From Candidatus Barnesiella excrementigallinarum (GTDB lineage Bacteria > Bacteroidota > Bacteroidia > Bacteroidales > Barnesiellaceae), in NCBI GenBank assembly GCA_019114445.1, contig DXFL01000019.1, forward strand, positions 1 through 64,000: DNA of 64,000 nucleotides, read 5' to 3'. Below the pieces are notes generated by a model. The model saw only the letters and a program-made list of their open reading frames with translations. It was not told the DNA's origin and ran no database searches. Below are positions 32,632-40,351 of this stretch, in pieces; position 1 is the first letter of the stretch, and every line of letters starts with the position of its first letter. A program made the translations under genes and the position numbers.

Positions 32632-35031
32632 ATGAAAAATTTTCTGCTTCCTCTCTTATGGGGAACATGGCTCCTTCCTGTGATGGGAATGCCTTTGTCG
32701 GCAACTACCGACTCATTAGGAAACCGAACGTACAACCTCAGTGCGGTAACCATCATCAGCACTCCCAAATGGGAATCGAAACTATTTGAGTTTCCCGGAT
32801 CGATTACGTATCTCGATACCCGGCAAATCGACGAGATGAATATCCACTCGGTAAAAGACATTTCTACGGTCGTACCCAACCTTTTCATTCCCAACTACGG
32901 CTCCAAACTCATCTCCTCGGCCTATATCCGAGGGATCGGGTCGCGTATCAACTCACCGGCTGTGGGGCTTTACGTAAACAATGTTCCCTATTTGGACAAA
33001 AGTGCCTTCGATTTCGATTTTATCGACATTGCCGATATAGAGGTATTGAAAGGCCCTCAGGGAACACTTTACGGCAGAAATACAATGGCCGGACTTGTCA
33101 ATATACAAACCATTTCGCCTTTGGAAAAACAAGGGTCGAAGGTAAAACTAAGTTTCGGCAACTACAACTTGTGGGGAGTCGCCGCCAGTACCAGTCAAAA
33201 GGTTACCGACGATTTGGCGTTCTCGGTAAATGCCCGCTATCGTGCCGACGACGGCTATTTCAAAAACTCATTTACCAAGAGGAATAGCGGGAGCACCCGC
33301 TCAGGCGGAGGCCGTGTGCAAATAGACTGGCGGGTAAACCGTCAATGGAAGTTGAGTTTCAGCGGCGACTACGAAGGGAGCGACCAACAGGGGTATCCCT
33401 ATGCCTACTACGACCAAACTCAGGGAAAAGCCGGAGACATCGGCTATAACGACGAGGCATCGTACCGCCGCGACCTTTTCACCTCGGGCTTATCGGCTCA
33501 ATATATCGACGAGCGTTTTATCTTCACGTCGACAACCGGATACCAGTATCTCGACGACGATATGCACCTCGACCAAGACTTTACGCCGCTTTCGGTCTTT
33601 ACCCTGCAACAAAAACAAAAAATGCACGCGGTTTCGCAAGAGTTCGTTTTCAAATCGCATAAGGGGAAACGATGGGAATGGGTAGGCGGCGTGTTCGGCT
33701 TTTACCAAAACACACGCACAAACGGCCCGGTCGATTTCAAGAAAGATGGTATAGATTTACTCATCACCCGGCAAACCAACGAGCAACTGGCAGCCCTTAA
33801 ACAAAATCCCGCATTGGCGAATATGCCCGATATTTCGATTGCCATCGACAACGAAAACCTCTATATCGACGGCATTTACAAAACCCCGGCTTACGGGGCA
33901 GCCGCGTTCGGACAAACGACACTCAACCGTATCTTTGTCGACGGATTATCGGCAACCGTAGGATTGCGTATCGACTACGAACACAACCAAATCCATCATC
34001 ACACTCATGCCACGCAGGAGTTGTCGGGGAAAGCCAACGTATCGATCAATGCCGGGGGACACCCCATCACCATACAGCAACCCTTTGCCCTACCCCTCGG
34101 TATCGATGGGAAAGAATCGATGCACGCCATCGAATTATCACCCAAGTTCGAGCTAAAATATGCCATCGGGAACAAAAGTTTCATCTATGCCTCGGCAACC
34201 CGGGGATACCGTTCCGGAGGATATAATTTCCAAATGTTTTCCAACCTCATACAATCGCAAATCCGCACCAGCATGATGAGCGAATTGATGAAAAACATGG
34301 GCGGCGGGACAGGCAACGACAGTCGCCCCGTCGCAAGCCGGGCATCGGGGATGCCCTCTTTCGAAACACCCGACGTAAAACAAGCCATCTCTTACAAACC
34401 CGAACACAGTTGGAACTACGAAATTGGAGGCCGCTCGCAGCTCATCGACAATCGCCTGTTTACCGACTTGGCTCTGTTCTATATCGATTGCCACGACCAG
34501 CAAATCGCCGCCGTAAGCGGATATGGCCGCGTCACCAAAAATTCGGGGCGTACTGCCAGCTACGGGTTGGAAGCCTCGCTACGGGCAACCCCCACCAACA
34601 GAATCCTGTTATCGGCATCATACGGCTATACCCACGCTACTTTCAAAGAGTATAACGACGGTACAAACGACTATGCCGGCAACTTCGTACCCTTTGCCCC
34701 GGCTCACACACTGGCGCTTTCGGGGGCTTACACGCTGCCTATCGACAAGGCTACCGACGTGACCTTCGACCTGCAATATTTAGGGCAAGGGAAAATATAC
34801 TGGACCGAAGCAAACAATGCAGCACAAAACTTCTACGGATTGGTAAATGCATCGATTCTGCTTTCGGGGAAATATGCCGATTTGAAACTTTGGGGCAGGA
34901 ACCTGCTGAATCGACATTATCAAGCATTTTACTTCGAAACGATGAACGCCGAAAACCTATCGGAGCCCAACAGTTTTATTCAACAGGGGAGGCCAATGAC
35001 TTTCGGGGTCGACATTACCCTTAAATTCTGA
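32632..35031 (+). CDS. TonB-dependent receptor
   Basis: Plug domain (SAYIRGIGSRINSPAVGLYVNNVPYLD, IEVLKGPQGTLYGRNTMAGLVNIQT) and barrel; last residue Phe; no SusD-like gene adjacent. Confidence 0.92.
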   Translation: MKNFLLPLLWGTWLLPVMGMPLSATTDSLGNRTYNLSAVTIISTPKWESKLFEFPGSITYLDTRQIDEMNIHSVKDISTVVPNLFIPNYGSKLISSAYIRGIGSRINSPAVGLYVNNVPYLDKSAFDFDFIDIADIEVLKGPQGTLYGRNTMAGLVNIQTISPLEKQGSKVKLSFGNYNLWGVAASTSQKVTDDLAFSVNARYRADDGYFKNSFTKRNSGSTRSGGGRVQIDWRVNRQWKLSFSGDYEGSDQQGYPYAYYDQTQGKAGDIGYNDEASYRRDLFTSGLSAQYIDERFIFTSTTGYQYLDDDMHLDQDFTPLSVFTLQQKQKMHAVSQEFVFKSHKGKRWEWVGGVFGFYQNTRTNGPVDFKKDGIDLLITRQTNEQLAALKQNPALANMPDISIAIDNENLYIDGIYKTPAYGAAAFGQTTLNRIFVDGLSATVGLRIDYEHNQIHHHTHATQELSGKANVSINAGGHPITIQQPFALPLGIDGKESMHAIELSPKFELKYAIGNKSFIYASATRGYRSGGYNFQMFSNLIQSQIRTSMMSELMKNMGGGTGNDSRPVASRASGMPSFETPDVKQAISYKPEHSWNYEIGGRSQLIDNRLFTDLALFYIDCHDQQIAAVSGYGRVTKNSGRTASYGLEASLRATPTNRILLSASYGYTHATFKEYNDGTNDYAGNFVPFAPAHTLALSGAYTLPIDKATDVTFDLQYLGQGKIYWTEANNAAQNFYGLVNASILLSGKYADLKLWGRNLLNRHYQAFYFETMNAENLSEPNSFIQQGRPMTFGVDITLKF

Positions 35032-35037
35032 CAAAAC

Positions 35038-35076
35038 CAAACACCCCCTCGTTATAAACACGAAGGGGCGTTTGGG
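35038..35076. terminator. Bidirectional hairpin between convergent genes
   Basis: CAAACACCCCCTCG ... CGAAGGGGCGTTTG. Confidence 0.6.
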
Positions 35077-35110: not shown

Positions 35111-36088
35111 TTAGTAGCCCAATGCTACATTGTCGATCCAAAAAACGCTGCCCAATCCGCCGACATACGCCGTGCCACAAGTGGCCGAAGCCATCACGAG
35201 CATATGGGTAACCGGCTCGTCGGCCGCTCCCCAACCCACTTCGATAACCGGTACCAGTTTCCCTTTGCTGTTCCGGCAATAATAGGCACTCTCCTCAGAG
35301 ATAAGTCCCATATAGGGTTTATAAAAAGACTTTCCGGTAATATCGCCATAGTAAATGGGAATGGAATGCCCATTTACCCAATCGGGAGTACTTTTCACAT
35401 ATCGTTCCCGACCGGTTCCCACACGATGGGCATATACGTTTCCGTCGGCATCTTCCCACCGATGCTGCAACAAAATATACACCTCGGCACTATCCCGGCC
35501 GGGGAGTTTCTTGCGGGGGCTGAATCCGGTCGATTGCGTACGGAAATCGTCGGGCGAAGCCTTATATTTATAATCGAAAATCAACCTGACCGGCCGTTTG
35601 GTAAAAGGGATTCCCATCTCCATCTTGCTATATGGGTCGTTTGTAGAACGTATAGGCTCATCGATTTCGCCCAAGAAAATACTACCGCTCACCAACACAT
35701 GGAGATTCATCAATCCCAACACGCAACAATCTTCGATAACCGTTTCCATGCGGGCACACGTCCCTCCATCGGCTCGTTTTTCGGGACGCACGGTGTTACT
35801 GGTCTTTATCACACCCATCACATTGGCCATCACATTGGACGAAGCCCACGGCGAACCGCCCATATTTTTGTATGCCTTATTCCCCTTGATATAACGGGTG
35901 GGAGCAATAGCATAGACCATTTTTGTCTTGCCTCCCAACAAAGCCGACTCCTTTATTTCGCGGGTAACCCACTGTTCGAAATCACCAAAAGCAATGGGCT
36001 CGACCCGTTGTGCCGACAATCCACACACACTTCCCAAAGCCAAAACCGCCGTAAGAAAAACGCTTTCTCTTATCTTCTTCATCTCCAT
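35111..36088 (-). CDS. Secreted PCMD-like (putative carbohydrate metabolism domain) protein
   Basis: Signal peptide; FGDFEQWVTREIKES and TRPVRLIFDYKYK-like beta-sandwich region ending FWIDNVALGY. Confidence 0.6.
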   Translation of the reverse strand: MEMKKIRESVFLTAVLALGSVCGLSAQRVEPIAFGDFEQWVTREIKESALLGGKTKMVYAIAPTRYIKGNKAYKNMGGSPWASSNVMANVMGVIKTSNTVRPEKRADGGTCARMETVIEDCCVLGLMNLHVLVSGSIFLGEIDEPIRSTNDPYSKMEMGIPFTKRPVRLIFDYKYKASPDDFRTQSTGFSPRKKLPGRDSAEVYILLQHRWEDADGNVYAHRVGTGRERYVKSTPDWVNGHSIPIYYGDITGKSFYKPYMGLISEESAYYCRNSKGKLVPVIEVGWGAADEPVTHMLVMASATCGTAYVGGLGSVFWIDNVALGY

Positions 36089-36290
36089 TCATCAAATATA
36101 TCTTTTACAAAATTATATCCTCTATCGGTATATTTCCGTCAATTATCTATTTTTAATATTCAAAACCCTTCATTCTTGTTAAAACAATCGATTAATTGCC
36201 TTGTTCATTCACAAAATGTATCTTTTTGTAAAAGAACGCTCCGTTTCGGAAAAGTAGTTTAAATTAAATTTCATCTCTCCGATTTTTACC

Positions 36291-36298
36291 TATTTTTG
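36291..36298 (+). promoter_or_regulatory. -7 box TATTTTTG for the steroid-reductase-like operon
   Basis: TAnnTTTG match 43 bp upstream of the first start codon. Confidence 0.45.
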
Positions 36299-36341: not shown

Positions 36342-37118
36342 ATGGACACAACTTTTTTATTCAATATTTTCTTAATCGTCATGGCTGTCACAGCCCTCAT
36401 CGTTTTTATTGCTTTATATTTTGTTAATGCAGGTTATGGTATGTTTTTCGACAAAAAATGGGGACTGTCACTCTCCAACCGTATCGGCTGGATACTCATG
36501 GAAGCCCCCGTATTTATTGCCATGACTTTCCTTTGGATATTCGCACCCGACGAATATCGTTTCGACCCGGTGCGGATTGTATTTCTGCTCCTGTTTCAAC
36601 TCCACTATTTCCAACGCTCATTCATATTTCCTTTCCTCATCAAAGGGAACAGCCGTATGCCATTGAGCATCATAAGTATGGGGGTTATATTCAACTTGCT
36701 CAACGCACTCATGCAAGGCGGGTGGATTTTCTATATCTCGCCGCTCGACTACTATACCCCCGAATGGTTCAGTTCACCCCAATTCATCATCGGGACCATT
36801 GTCTTCTTGGCCGGTATGTTCATCAATATCCAATCCGACTCCATCATACGCCACCTGCGCAACCCTGGTGACCGTCGCCACTATATCCCCCGAGGCGGAA
36901 TGTTCCGCTGGGTATCGTCGGCCAACTATTTCGGCGAATGGCTCGAATGGGTGGGATTCGCCATTCTCACTTGGTCGTGGGCCGGAGCCGTATTCGCATG
37001 GTGGACTTTCGCCAACCTCGCCCCTCGTTCGGCCGCACTTTACAAGCGGTACACCCAAGAGTTCGGCGAAGAATTTACCCAAGAAAAACGAAAACGAATA
37101 ATTCCTTTTATCTATTGA
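36342..37118 (+). CDS. 3-oxo-5-alpha-steroid 4-dehydrogenase (steroid 5-alpha-reductase, SRD5A family)
   Basis: Polytopic; LLFQLHYFQRSFIFPFLIKGNSRMPL, LAGMFINIQSDSIIRHLRNPGDRRHYIPRGGMFRWVSSANYFGEWLEWVGFAILTWSWAGAVFAWWTFANLAPRS, KRIIPFIY. Confidence 0.93.
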   Translation: MDTTFLFNIFLIVMAVTALIVFIALYFVNAGYGMFFDKKWGLSLSNRIGWILMEAPVFIAMTFLWIFAPDEYRFDPVRIVFLLLFQLHYFQRSFIFPFLIKGNSRMPLSIISMGVIFNLLNALMQGGWIFYISPLDYYTPEWFSSPQFIIGTIVFLAGMFINIQSDSIIRHLRNPGDRRHYIPRGGMFRWVSSANYFGEWLEWVGFAILTWSWAGAVFAWWTFANLAPRSAALYKRYTQEFGEEFTQEKRKRIIPFIY

Positions 37119-37122
37119 TAAC

Positions 37123-38370
37123 ATGGCTAACGAAAAATATCCAAACTCACGGCTTTTCACACCCGCCTCGATAGGCCCCGTGACACTGAGAAACCGAACC
37201 ATACGGTCGGCTGCTTTCGAAGGTATGTGCGAGAACAACGCCCCTACCGAACAACTTTACAACTACCATCGCAGCGTAGCTGCCGGAGGAATAGGCATGA
37301 CTACACTCGCCTACGCCTCGGTTACCCGCAACGGGCTCTCGTTCAAGAGCCAACTATGGATGCGCCCCGAAATCGTAAAACCCTTGCGCCGCATTACCGA
37401 TGCCATTCATGCCGAAGGTGCCAAAGCCTCCATTCAGTTGGGGCACTGCGGCAATATGTCGCATCGCAGCACTGCCGGACAGATACCCATATCGGCTTCG
37501 ACCGGGTTCAACCTCTACTCGCCCACCTTCATGCGCGGTATGCATAAAGACGAAATCGTGGCGATGGCCAAATCGTTTGGCGATGCTGTAAATACCGCCC
37601 GCGATGCCGGATTCGACGCCGTAGAAATCCACGCCGGACACGGCTACCTCATCAGCCAGTTCCTGTCACCCTATACCAACCATCGCCGCGACGAATACGG
37701 CGGATCGCTCGACAACCGTATGCGATTCATGCGTATGTGCATGGAACAGGTGATGAAAGCCGCCGGCAACGATATGGCGGTTATCGTAAAGACCAATATG
37801 CGCGACGGATTCAAAGGGGGTATCGAAATCGACGAAGGACTACTCATCGCCCGCGAGCTGGAACAACTGGGAGCCCATGCCCTCGTGTTGAGCGGCGGTT
37901 TTGTAAGCAAGGCACCCATGTATGTCATGCGAGGCGAAATGCCCATCACTACCCTCACTTACTACATGAAGACCTTGTGGCTCAAATACGGCGTGAAAAT
38001 GGCCGGCCGGTTTATGATACCCAAAGTCCCGTTCCGCGAAGCCTATTTCCTCGACGACGCCCTCAAATTCCGCGAAGCATTAAAATTACCGCTTATCTAT
38101 GTGGGAGGATTGGTGGCACGGCCGGCCATCGAAAAAGTCCTCGACCACGGATTTGAATTTATACAGATGGGACGCGCGCTCATCAACGAGCCCGACTTTG
38201 TCAATCGCATGAAAAACGAAAGCGAAGAGCGATGCGGCTGCGACCATACCAACTACTGCATAGCCCGTATGTACTCGATCGATATGGCTTGCCACAAACA
38301 CCTCGAAGGCCAACTGCCTCCCTGCATTGTCAAAGAAATAGAAAAAATTCACCGTAATGACTCGAAATAA
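37123..38370 (+). CDS. NADH:flavin oxidoreductase, Old Yellow Enzyme family, single TIM-barrel domain
   Basis: LFTPASIGPVTLRNRTIRSA, AVEIHAGHGYLISQFLSPYTNHRRDEYGGSLDNRMRF and C-terminal CGCDHTNYCIARMYSIDMAC. Confidence 0.93.
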   Translation: MANEKYPNSRLFTPASIGPVTLRNRTIRSAAFEGMCENNAPTEQLYNYHRSVAAGGIGMTTLAYASVTRNGLSFKSQLWMRPEIVKPLRRITDAIHAEGAKASIQLGHCGNMSHRSTAGQIPISASTGFNLYSPTFMRGMHKDEIVAMAKSFGDAVNTARDAGFDAVEIHAGHGYLISQFLSPYTNHRRDEYGGSLDNRMRFMRMCMEQVMKAAGNDMAVIVKTNMRDGFKGGIEIDEGLLIARELEQLGAHALVLSGGFVSKAPMYVMRGEMPITTLTYYMKTLWLKYGVKMAGRFMIPKVPFREAYFLDDALKFREALKLPLIYVGGLVARPAIEKVLDHGFEFIQMGRALINEPDFVNRMKNESEERCGCDHTNYCIARMYSIDMACHKHLEGQLPPCIVKEIEKIHRNDSK

Positions 38371-39154
38371 AGATTTCTCGTCGTACACGGCACTCGTTAC
38401 CGGAGCCAGTTCGGGCATAGGGCTCGAATTTGCCCGGCAACTGGCCGCCCGAAAAGTGAAGCTGGTCTTAGTCAGTATCGACCGCGAAGAGCTCGAACAG
38501 CAGGCCGAAGCGATTCACGCCGAGTTCGGCGTTCCCGTCGAAACCCGTTGCATGGATTTGGCCCGCCAAGAATCGGCCGACGAGCTCTACCGCTACTGCC
38601 GGGAAAAAGGCAAGACCGTCGACATACTCATTAACAACGCCGGGATCTTTTCTCTCCGAAAAATAACCGATACCGACCCGGAGAAAATCGAAACCATGCT
38701 GCAACTACACATCGGTACCGTTACCCGCTTATCCCGCCTCTTTGCCAACGATATGTGCAACCGGCGTTGCGGGTACATACTCAATATGTCGTCGCTCTCA
38801 TGCTGGACACCCTACCCCGGTATCGCACTCTATACGGCCACCAAAGCCTACATTCGCGTATTCACCCGGGCACTGGCTTATGAGCTGCACGATTATGGGG
38901 TGAAAGTCACCGTCGTGTGCCCCGGCGGTGTAGCTACCGGACTATACGGATTGCCTCCCCGGCTGTTGAAATTAGGGGTAAGGCTGGGAGTGCTCATGCC
39001 CCCCCAAAAGATGGTGCGGAAATCGCTCAATGCCCTCTTCCGAGGCAAAAAGCAACTGATTCCCGGCCTGTTCAACCGTTTTCTCATTCCGTTGGCAGCC
39101 ATCATGCCTACTCGGATTCGTCTCATTGTCAAACACCGTATGCTCGATGAATAA
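38357..39154 (+). CDS. Short-chain dehydrogenase/reductase (hydroxysteroid dehydrogenase-like)
   Basis: VTGASSGIGLEFA, LINNAG, MSSLSCWTPYPGIALYTATKAY and VCPGGVATGLYG; overlaps the upstream gene by 14 bp. Confidence 0.92.
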   Translation: MTRNKDFSSYTALVTGASSGIGLEFARQLAARKVKLVLVSIDREELEQQAEAIHAEFGVPVETRCMDLARQESADELYRYCREKGKTVDILINNAGIFSLRKITDTDPEKIETMLQLHIGTVTRLSRLFANDMCNRRCGYILNMSSLSCWTPYPGIALYTATKAYIRVFTRALAYELHDYGVKVTVVCPGGVATGLYGLPPRLLKLGVRLGVLMPPQKMVRKSLNALFRGKKQLIPGLFNRFLIPLAAIMPTRIRLIVKHRMLDE

Positions 39155-40013
39155 AGACTACTACATCGTTACGGGAGCCAGCGGAAGCATAGGACAAGCC
39201 ATAGCCGAAGCGCTTGCCCAACAAGGGCTGCCTCTGATTTTAGCCTGTCGGAATATGGCTAAATCGGAACCTGTACGGCAACAAATTATCGAAAAAACGG
39301 GGAATAAAGAAGTTAAACTCTTGCCCCTCGATTTGGCCTCGATTCACTCCATTCTCCATTTCGGGGAAATGCTTACCAACGAAGGCTGTTCGATCAAAGC
39401 ACTTATCAACAACGCCGGCGTCATGTGCAAAGATTTCGGGCAAACGACCGACGGGTTCGAAACTACCGTTGGGGTCAACTACATAGGCACCGTACTCCTC
39501 ACCCAACAGCTTATCCCCCTCATGCACCCGGGAAGCCGTATCGTCACCACCACCTCGCTGACACGCTACATCGGGAAAATAGAGCCCTCGTTCTTCGACA
39601 GTATCCCACACGGGTACAAACGGTTCAAGGCATACAGCAAATCGAAACTCGCCCTTACCCTGTACACCGCAAGGCTCGCACAAGAGTTGCAACCTCGGGG
39701 GATTGCCGTCAACGCCGCCGACCCCGGAATCGTCGACTCCGACATGATTACCATGCATTCGTGGGTCGACCCCTTAGCCAATCTCTTTTTCCGCCCCTTC
39801 ATCAGCACACCCCAACAAGGAGCCATCAGCGCAATCTCTGCGGCAAGTTTTCCCGATTCGAGTAAAATTTCAGGCGAAATATTCAACAAAAAACATCACG
39901 CACCCATACCCGCCTCGCTGAAAAACTCGTCACAAACATTATGGTTATGGAACGAAACCGAAAAACTCGTTGCCAAACTATCCGAAAAAACAAAGGCTCA
40001 ACCCCAGTTATAA
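39147..40013 (+). CDS. Short-chain dehydrogenase/reductase (retinol dehydrogenase-like)
   Basis: VTGASGSIGQAIAEAL, LINNAGVM, KAYSKSKLALTLY and ADPGIVDSDM; start overlaps the upstream stop (ATGAATAA). Confidence 0.9.
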   Translation: MNKDYYIVTGASGSIGQAIAEALAQQGLPLILACRNMAKSEPVRQQIIEKTGNKEVKLLPLDLASIHSILHFGEMLTNEGCSIKALINNAGVMCKDFGQTTDGFETTVGVNYIGTVLLTQQLIPLMHPGSRIVTTTSLTRYIGKIEPSFFDSIPHGYKRFKAYSKSKLALTLYTARLAQELQPRGIAVNAADPGIVDSDMITMHSWVDPLANLFFRPFISTPQQGAISAISAASFPDSSKISGEIFNKKHHAPIPASLKNSSQTLWLWNETEKLVAKLSEKTKAQPQL

Positions 40014-40316: not shown

Positions 40317-40351
40317 AAAAAAAACCGCCGATTTCCGTTCAGAAATCGGCG
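40317..40351 (-). terminator. Terminator of fba
   Basis: CGCCGATTTC-CGTTCA-GAAATCGGCG with an A-run on its plus-strand left flank (T-run on minus). Confidence 0.8.

Follow-up and report, generated by a model that had tools for sequence, protein, structure and literature searches.

Four adjacent genes on the plus strand of contig DXFL01000019.1 of Candidatus Barnesiella excrementigallinarum very probably constitute a steroid A/B-ring inversion system of the Bacteroidota, and A-ring inversion is the likely activity of the operon. The genes occupy positions 36342-40013 of the window, which is the whole stretch of 64,000 nucleotides analysed here, and encode a steroid 5-alpha-reductase (5AR), an Old Yellow Enzyme (OYE) and two short-chain dehydrogenases (SDR1 and SDR2). 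Studies have shown that Bacteroidota strains convert 3-oxo-delta4-lithocholic acid (3-oxo-delta4-LCA) to allolithocholic acid (alloLCA) derivatives, and that disruption of 5AR in Parabacteroides merdae abolishes these derivatives (PMC10382948, summarising Sato et al. 2021). The 5AR gene clusters of Bacteroidota also contain a predicted 3-beta-hydroxysteroid dehydrogenase (3-beta-HSDH) and a BaiCD/BaiH-like NADH:flavin oxidoreductase (PMC10382948), and PMC12697870 and PMC9645264 agree on this enzyme set. Because the operon has all three gene types reported for the isoallolithocholic acid (isoalloLCA) cluster, it is a member of that known type. By every feature that can be tested in the sequence, its assignment to the already described 5AR/5-beta-reductase (5BR)/3-beta-HSDH type is well supported. 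The original prediction for this DNA had pointed to such clusters from gut Bacteroidales and had read the locus as a 5-alpha/5-beta pathway; PMC10382948 bears out this comparison, and the identity of the first gene, the recurring gene order and the published cluster support the reading. The gene order, the protein families, the intact catalytic residues and the conservation of the operon as a unit were observed in this study, and the activity of such a 5AR on 3-oxo-delta4-LCA is taken from the literature.

In the proposed pathway, an SDR would oxidise the 3-hydroxyl to a 3-ketone, and the OYE flavoenzyme would interconvert 5-beta-3-oxo and 3-oxo-delta4 steroids. The SRD5A-type enzyme in the inner membrane would then use NADPH to reduce the delta4 bond to a flat 5-alpha-3-oxo product, and an SDR would reduce C3 to give a 5-alpha-3-beta-hydroxy (isoallo-type) steroid. 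A protein of the PCMD family, divergently expressed and presumably exported to the periplasm, would probably carry or present the hydrophobic steroid.

Organization of the operon

The four open reading frames are 5AR (36342-37118, 258 amino acids, SRD5A-type), OYE (37123-38370, 415 amino acids, single-domain Old Yellow Enzyme), SDR1 (38357-39154, 265 amino acids, classical short-chain dehydrogenase) and SDR2 (39147-40013, 288 amino acids, retinol dehydrogenase (RDH)/PRK06197-like), all on the plus strand. The length of SDR2 is counted from its ATG, and the longest start listed for this frame by the program is the TTG at 39126. The recomputed coordinates agree exactly with the layout first proposed: 5AR and OYE are separated by a 4-bp gap, OYE and SDR1 overlap by 14 bp, and SDR1 and SDR2 overlap by 8 bp. 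When the region was shuffled 200 times, the longest run without a stop had a mean of 129 codons and a maximum of 242, whereas the real frames span 258-415 amino acids, and thus the reading frames of the operon are not due to chance. All four products scored far over the Pfam cut-offs, with 147 bits for Steroid_dh (5AR), 189 bits for Oxidored_FMN (OYE, PF00724), and 154 and 103 bits for adh_short (PF00106) in SDR1 and SDR2, respectively. The naming of gene 2 as an Old Yellow Enzyme and of genes 3 and 4 as classical SDRs is in line with these scores.

Gene 1 encodes a predicted steroid 5-alpha-reductase

The 5AR protein matched Pfam PF02544 (Steroid_dh) at 146.9 bits, with a curated cut-off of 22.6, and DUF1295 at 28 bits. 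Its closest PDB structures were the bacterial steroid 5-alpha-reductase 7C83 (192 bits, E=8e-56) and human SRD5A2 7BW1 (137 bits, E=6e-39), and the enoyl-CoA reductase 22of trailed far behind at 44 bits. Residues E57 and Y91 of SRD5A2 have catalytic roles. The aligned residues of 5AR, E54 and Y89, are unchanged in 19 aligned homologues. These results uphold gene 1 as an SRD5A relative. Grouping with DUF1295/ICMT-type proteins, which had been named as the competing placement, fails because Steroid_dh is so far ahead of DUF1295 and because the nearest structures are 7C83 and 7BW1. The product of gene 1 is thus predicted to be a true SRD5A-type steroid 5-alpha-reductase and not a DUF1295/ICMT relative.

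Conservation of the operon in Bacteroidales

The order-level sample comprised 198 genomes, and approximately 120 families were taken for the family counts. 5AR was present at 52% identity or more in 24 of the 198 genomes, and in 20 of these 24 an OYE gene adjoined it on the same strand. More distant 5AR proteins (34-43% identity) had no adjoining OYE, and in two genomes an OYE gene lay about 10 kb off on the same contig. All nine genomes of the genus, which include Barnesiella sp. An22, carried 5AR at 85% identity or more. Among the 80 closest named 5AR loci, 5AR and OYE were neighbours in 74 (median gap, 19 bp), and mostly SDR1 and/or SDR2 came next. The commonest arrangement was 5AR-OYE-SDR1 (n=31), followed by 5AR-OYE-SDR1-SDR2 (n=15). 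This indicates that gut and rumen Bacteroidales share a compact 5AR-OYE-SDR block that is found again and again. The flanking families in the 80 loci were also inspected as candidates for membership in the operon; they resemble housekeeping genes and vary with the lineage, and they were rejected on these grounds.

SDR1 and SDR2 as hydroxysteroid dehydrogenase candidates

SDR1 contains TGASSGIG at residue 15, NNAG at 93 and YxxxK at 159. SDR2 matched NCBIfam PRK06197 at 143.7 bits and has an ACRN motif after beta-2, which is of the NADPH type. The TGxxxGxG, NNAG and Ser-Tyr-Lys signatures are intact in both proteins, but they are common to all classical SDRs and hence non-specific. The best profile models of the two were mycolate reductase and PRK06197. 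In most related loci SDR1 comes after OYE and is the commonest third gene of the operon, whereas SDR2 is found in about a third of them, sometimes directly after OYE with SDR1 upstream or absent. This distribution makes SDR1 the core candidate for an HSDH, and the best one for the presumed 3-beta-HSDH, with SDR2 as a candidate for an optional second hydroxysteroid dehydrogenase.

A divergent PCMD gene accompanies the operon

The original prediction was right about the four operon genes and overlooked their divergent partner. This gene (35111-36088, minus strand) encodes a 325-amino-acid protein of the PF13201 family, PCMD, with a score of 89.2 bits against a cut-off of 28. Read by eye, its N-terminus is a likely signal peptide that ends LSA-Q and has no lipobox. 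PCMD is the divergent neighbour of the operon in nine of nine Barnesiella genomes. In nine loci, mostly ruminant, a PCMD gene lies on the same strand, either next to or in between SDR1 and SDR2 or immediately upstream of 5AR, and in one more locus (L089) it is placed between SDR2 and SDR1 but runs in the opposite direction. The surroundings of PCMD were also fetched where the gene is not beside the operon. In eight genomes it lies directly 3' of a Sulfotransfer_3 gene; seven of these eight contigs carry the PAPS-synthesis genes CysN and CysD and a sulfate-type permease, and an adenylylsulfate (APS) kinase was called on six. Studies have shown that the sulfotransferase BT_0416, which belongs to the sulfonation cluster BT_0411-BT_0416 of Bacteroides thetaiotaomicron, acts on cholesterol (PMC9417993).

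Among the 198 genomes, 30 have 5AR or a close homologue of the sulfotransferase, and PCMD was found in 25 of these; of the 168 genomes that have neither, 2 contain PCMD (Fisher 1e-24). Counted by family, the figures were 16 of 19 with either cluster and 1 of 101 without, although shared ancestry is not fully removed by this count. On a maximum-likelihood tree of PCMD, the linkage to the operon needs at least four label changes, which may be gains or losses, so the linkage has changed repeatedly. That PCMD tracks steroid-modifying clusters across the order suggests that it, too, handles steroids. Judged from its neighbourhood and co-occurrence, PCMD belongs with the ring-inversion system, and we propose that it is a periplasmic steroid carrier. 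The broader idea is that PCMD defines a dedicated steroid-handling subfamily within a domain that otherwise has no assigned role, a periplasmic carrier that would bring flat or hydrophobic steroids to two independent pathways, the 5AR/5BR/HSDH operon and BT_0416-type sulfonation, with sterols as well as bile acids as substrates of the operon; we hold it tentatively, as a real possibility somewhat short of an even chance. No publication linking PCMD to steroids was found in our literature search.

The AlphaFold model of PCMD has a mean predicted local distance difference test (pLDDT) score of 86.7, and its five structure matches with E <1e-6 are all BT3745-type PCMD structures. A catalytic glycoside hydrolase role was considered from the fold and rejected: the top structure matches are unassigned at a template modelling score (TM-score) of about 0.44, and thus the fold gives no function. 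A link between reduction and sulfonation within one Barnesiella genome was also dropped, because a BT_0416-type sulfotransferase was not found in the nine Barnesiella genomes searched.

Two observations concern other copies of these genes. In two loci (L148 and L149, genomes G089 and G192), PCMD has an SDR1 paralogue as its immediate neighbour, roughly 10 kb away from the 5AR-OYE operon (L148, L140). In the genome of the window, three more PCMD-domain matches (L119, L120 and L122) lie within 7 kb (G000:C23:92687-99711), in frames longer than the operon-linked PCMD.

Native substrate of the operon

A tally of record titles, in which RUG was read as rumen uncultured genome, traces 14 of the 80 named 5AR loci to samples of the rumen, reticulum, omasum or abomasum. 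Because the forestomach and abomasum precede the entry of bile, bile acids are probably not the sole native substrate. An operon of the same type might then act mainly on steroid hormones and on sterols from the diet or the host (3-oxo-delta4 compounds derived from phytosterols or cholesterol) instead of bile acids. It would produce 5-alpha-stanols or saturated steroids, which could serve as a sink for electrons or for detoxification. PCMD is also shared with clusters of the sulfotransferase BT_0416, an enzyme that acts on cholesterol (PMC9417993), and this points the same way as the forestomach loci. On the other hand, the source labels of metagenome-assembled genomes do not prove where the cells are active, the activity published for 5AR strains of Bacteroidota concerns bile-acid intermediates (PMC10382948), and the nine Barnesiella genomes are without the sulfotransferase. 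Moreover, the genome of the window has one choloylglycine-hydrolase-family gene (L118, G000:C20:15106-16035; bile_salt_hydro 211 bits, under the cut-off of 350). Considering both sides, we regard a mainly non-bile-acid operon as possible but rather unlikely. In the hindgut, bile acids could plausibly be the substrate; sterols or steroid hormones deserve serious consideration as an alternative.

Bond specificity of the Old Yellow Enzyme

The active-site HxxH-GY of OYE, with the H170/H173 pair and Y175, is identical in 63 of 63 operon OYE proteins. In an alignment to 3KRZ, the HxxH pair corresponds to the carbonyl-binding arrangement of YqjM-type enzymes. This conserved pair together with the tyrosine suggests an active site suited to holding the enone carbonyl of a 3-ketosteroid. 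A C-terminal CxHx3C-x10-C pattern (C373, H375, C379 and C390; window 38239-38292) is also identical in 63 of 63, and in this single-domain protein it is a possible metal or iron-sulfur site. The label BaiCD was rejected for OYE, which scored 185.5 bits against NCBIfam NF041087 (equivalog cut-off 825) and has one domain, not two: residues 10-267 cover positions 3-261 of the 642 in the model, and the second domain is absent.

By analogy with the published clusters, we presume that OYE is a 3-oxo-delta4 5-beta-reductase/dehydrogenase. It might instead reduce another double bond, such as delta1 or delta6, or only desaturate 5-beta-3-ketones, and the operon would then yield 5-alpha products only. 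Gut bacteria do possess delta6-3-ketosteroid reductases besides 5-beta-reductases (PMC12238238), and OYE retains the YqjM-type pair without the second domain of the BaiCD model. We consider this alternative unlikely, as the partner of 5AR in the published cluster is a flavin oxidoreductase that was hypothesised to be the 5-beta enzyme, and as the conversion of 3-oxoLCA to isoalloLCA by the strains requires a C4-C5 desaturase or reductase (both PMC10382948).

Weighing the evidence

Several observations weigh against a ring-inversion operon served by its own steroid carrier. PCMD occurs in two genomes that have neither cluster, five genomes with one of the clusters lack it, and part of the shared ancestry is left in the co-occurrence test. 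The nearest solved relatives of PCMD are putative glycoside hydrolases with unassigned function. OYE is so far under the BaiCD cut-off that its presumed 5-beta-reductase activity cannot be derived from membership in BaiCD. For both SDRs, the profile search and the listed PDB matches gave no close relative among characterised HSDH enzymes.

In animals, SRD5A3 acts with the short-chain dehydrogenase DHRSX to convert polyprenol to dolichol. A comparable route for a non-steroid isoprenoid (oxidation by an SDR, reduction of the enal by the SRD5A-type enzyme and reduction back by an SDR) would fit the breadth of Steroid_dh, which also takes in different lipid reductases, the enoyl-CoA reductase 22of among them, as well as the broad RDH/PRK06197-like group of SDR2 that contains retinol dehydrogenases, but it is very improbable, given that gene 1 is nearer to the bacterial 5AR and SRD5A2 than to that reductase (192 and 137 vs 44 bits) and has an SRD5A1/2-like length, that PCMD connects the operon to steroid sulfotransferase clusters, and that a 5AR knockout in a like cluster loses alloLCA products (PMC10382948). 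Steroid A/B-ring inversion is the reading that we carry forward.

Putative regulatory elements and the neighbouring receptor gene

A plain sigma-70 scan gave nothing over the shuffled background, and the Bacteroidetes -7 motif TAnnTTTG was used in its place. A match to this pattern, TATTTTTG, lies at 36291-36298 on the plus strand, 43 bp upstream of 5AR, as the putative promoter element of the operon, and the corresponding element of PCMD, TAATTTTG, matches at 36108-36115 on the minus strand. Both are retained across nine aligned Barnesiella genomes. Downstream of the operon, a hairpin with a 10-pair stem (40326-40351, plus strand), convergent with a fructose-bisphosphate aldolase gene, could be a candidate terminator; the terminator scan of the region as a whole was at background, with no more sites than in the shuffles.

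A TonB-dependent receptor gene (32632-35031, plus strand) converges on the PCMD gene, and its NCBIfam match is siderophore-type but below the cut-off. A terminator-like hairpin of 16 pairs (35037-35075) separates the two genes, and no homologue of the receptor was found close to the operon in the Barnesiella loci L038/L039 and L150/L151. For these three reasons the receptor was rejected as a dedicated steroid importer.

Significance

IsoalloLCA, which is made through the 5-alpha/5-beta inversion of gut Bacteroidota, is active against Clostridioides difficile, and the same inversion may be one contributor to the dihydrotestosterone levels of women (PMC10382948, PMC12589954). The pathway is now placed in nine of nine Barnesiella genomes searched; no assay of such activity in Barnesiella was found in the literature. 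The parts that specialists would not have expected are the linkage to PCMD and the forestomach distribution. As bile acids are normally absent from the ruminant forestomach, the presence of the operon in bacteria from this site turns the native substrate into a testable question. PCMD, a domain family that had no function, gains a concrete hypothesis as a steroid carrier common to reduction and sulfonation clusters, and if this is true, it would supply a missing step, the passage of steroids across the Bacteroidota cell envelope to the enzymes.

Comparison with known systems

The closest known system is the isoalloLCA cluster of Parabacteroides merdae, Odoribacteraceae and others (Sato 2021 and Li 2021, via PMC10382948 and PMC12697870), which likewise combines an SRD5A-type 5AR, a flavin oxidoreductase and an SDR in gut Bacteroidales. 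Unlike that cluster, the window adds the RDH/PRK06197-type SDR2 and the divergent PCMD gene. The clostridial 5-beta-reductase ci2350 and BaiCD (PMC12238238; NF041087) share with OYE the superfamily and, presumably, the same C4-C5 reaction. The BaiCD model has two domains over 642 positions, whereas OYE covers only the first 261 and keeps the HxxH pair. BaiP and BaiJ of Firmicutes also give allo (5-alpha) bile acids from 3-oxo-delta4 intermediates, but they are flavoproteins reported in Firmicutes only, and the authors set them apart from the membrane-associated enzymes of Bacteroidetes (PMC9645264). In contrast to the window operon, BT_0411-BT_0416 makes sulfate esters. Its composition matches that of the Sulfotransfer_3 clusters that end in PCMD in related genomes, which are the BT_0416-like set plus one extra gene, PCMD.

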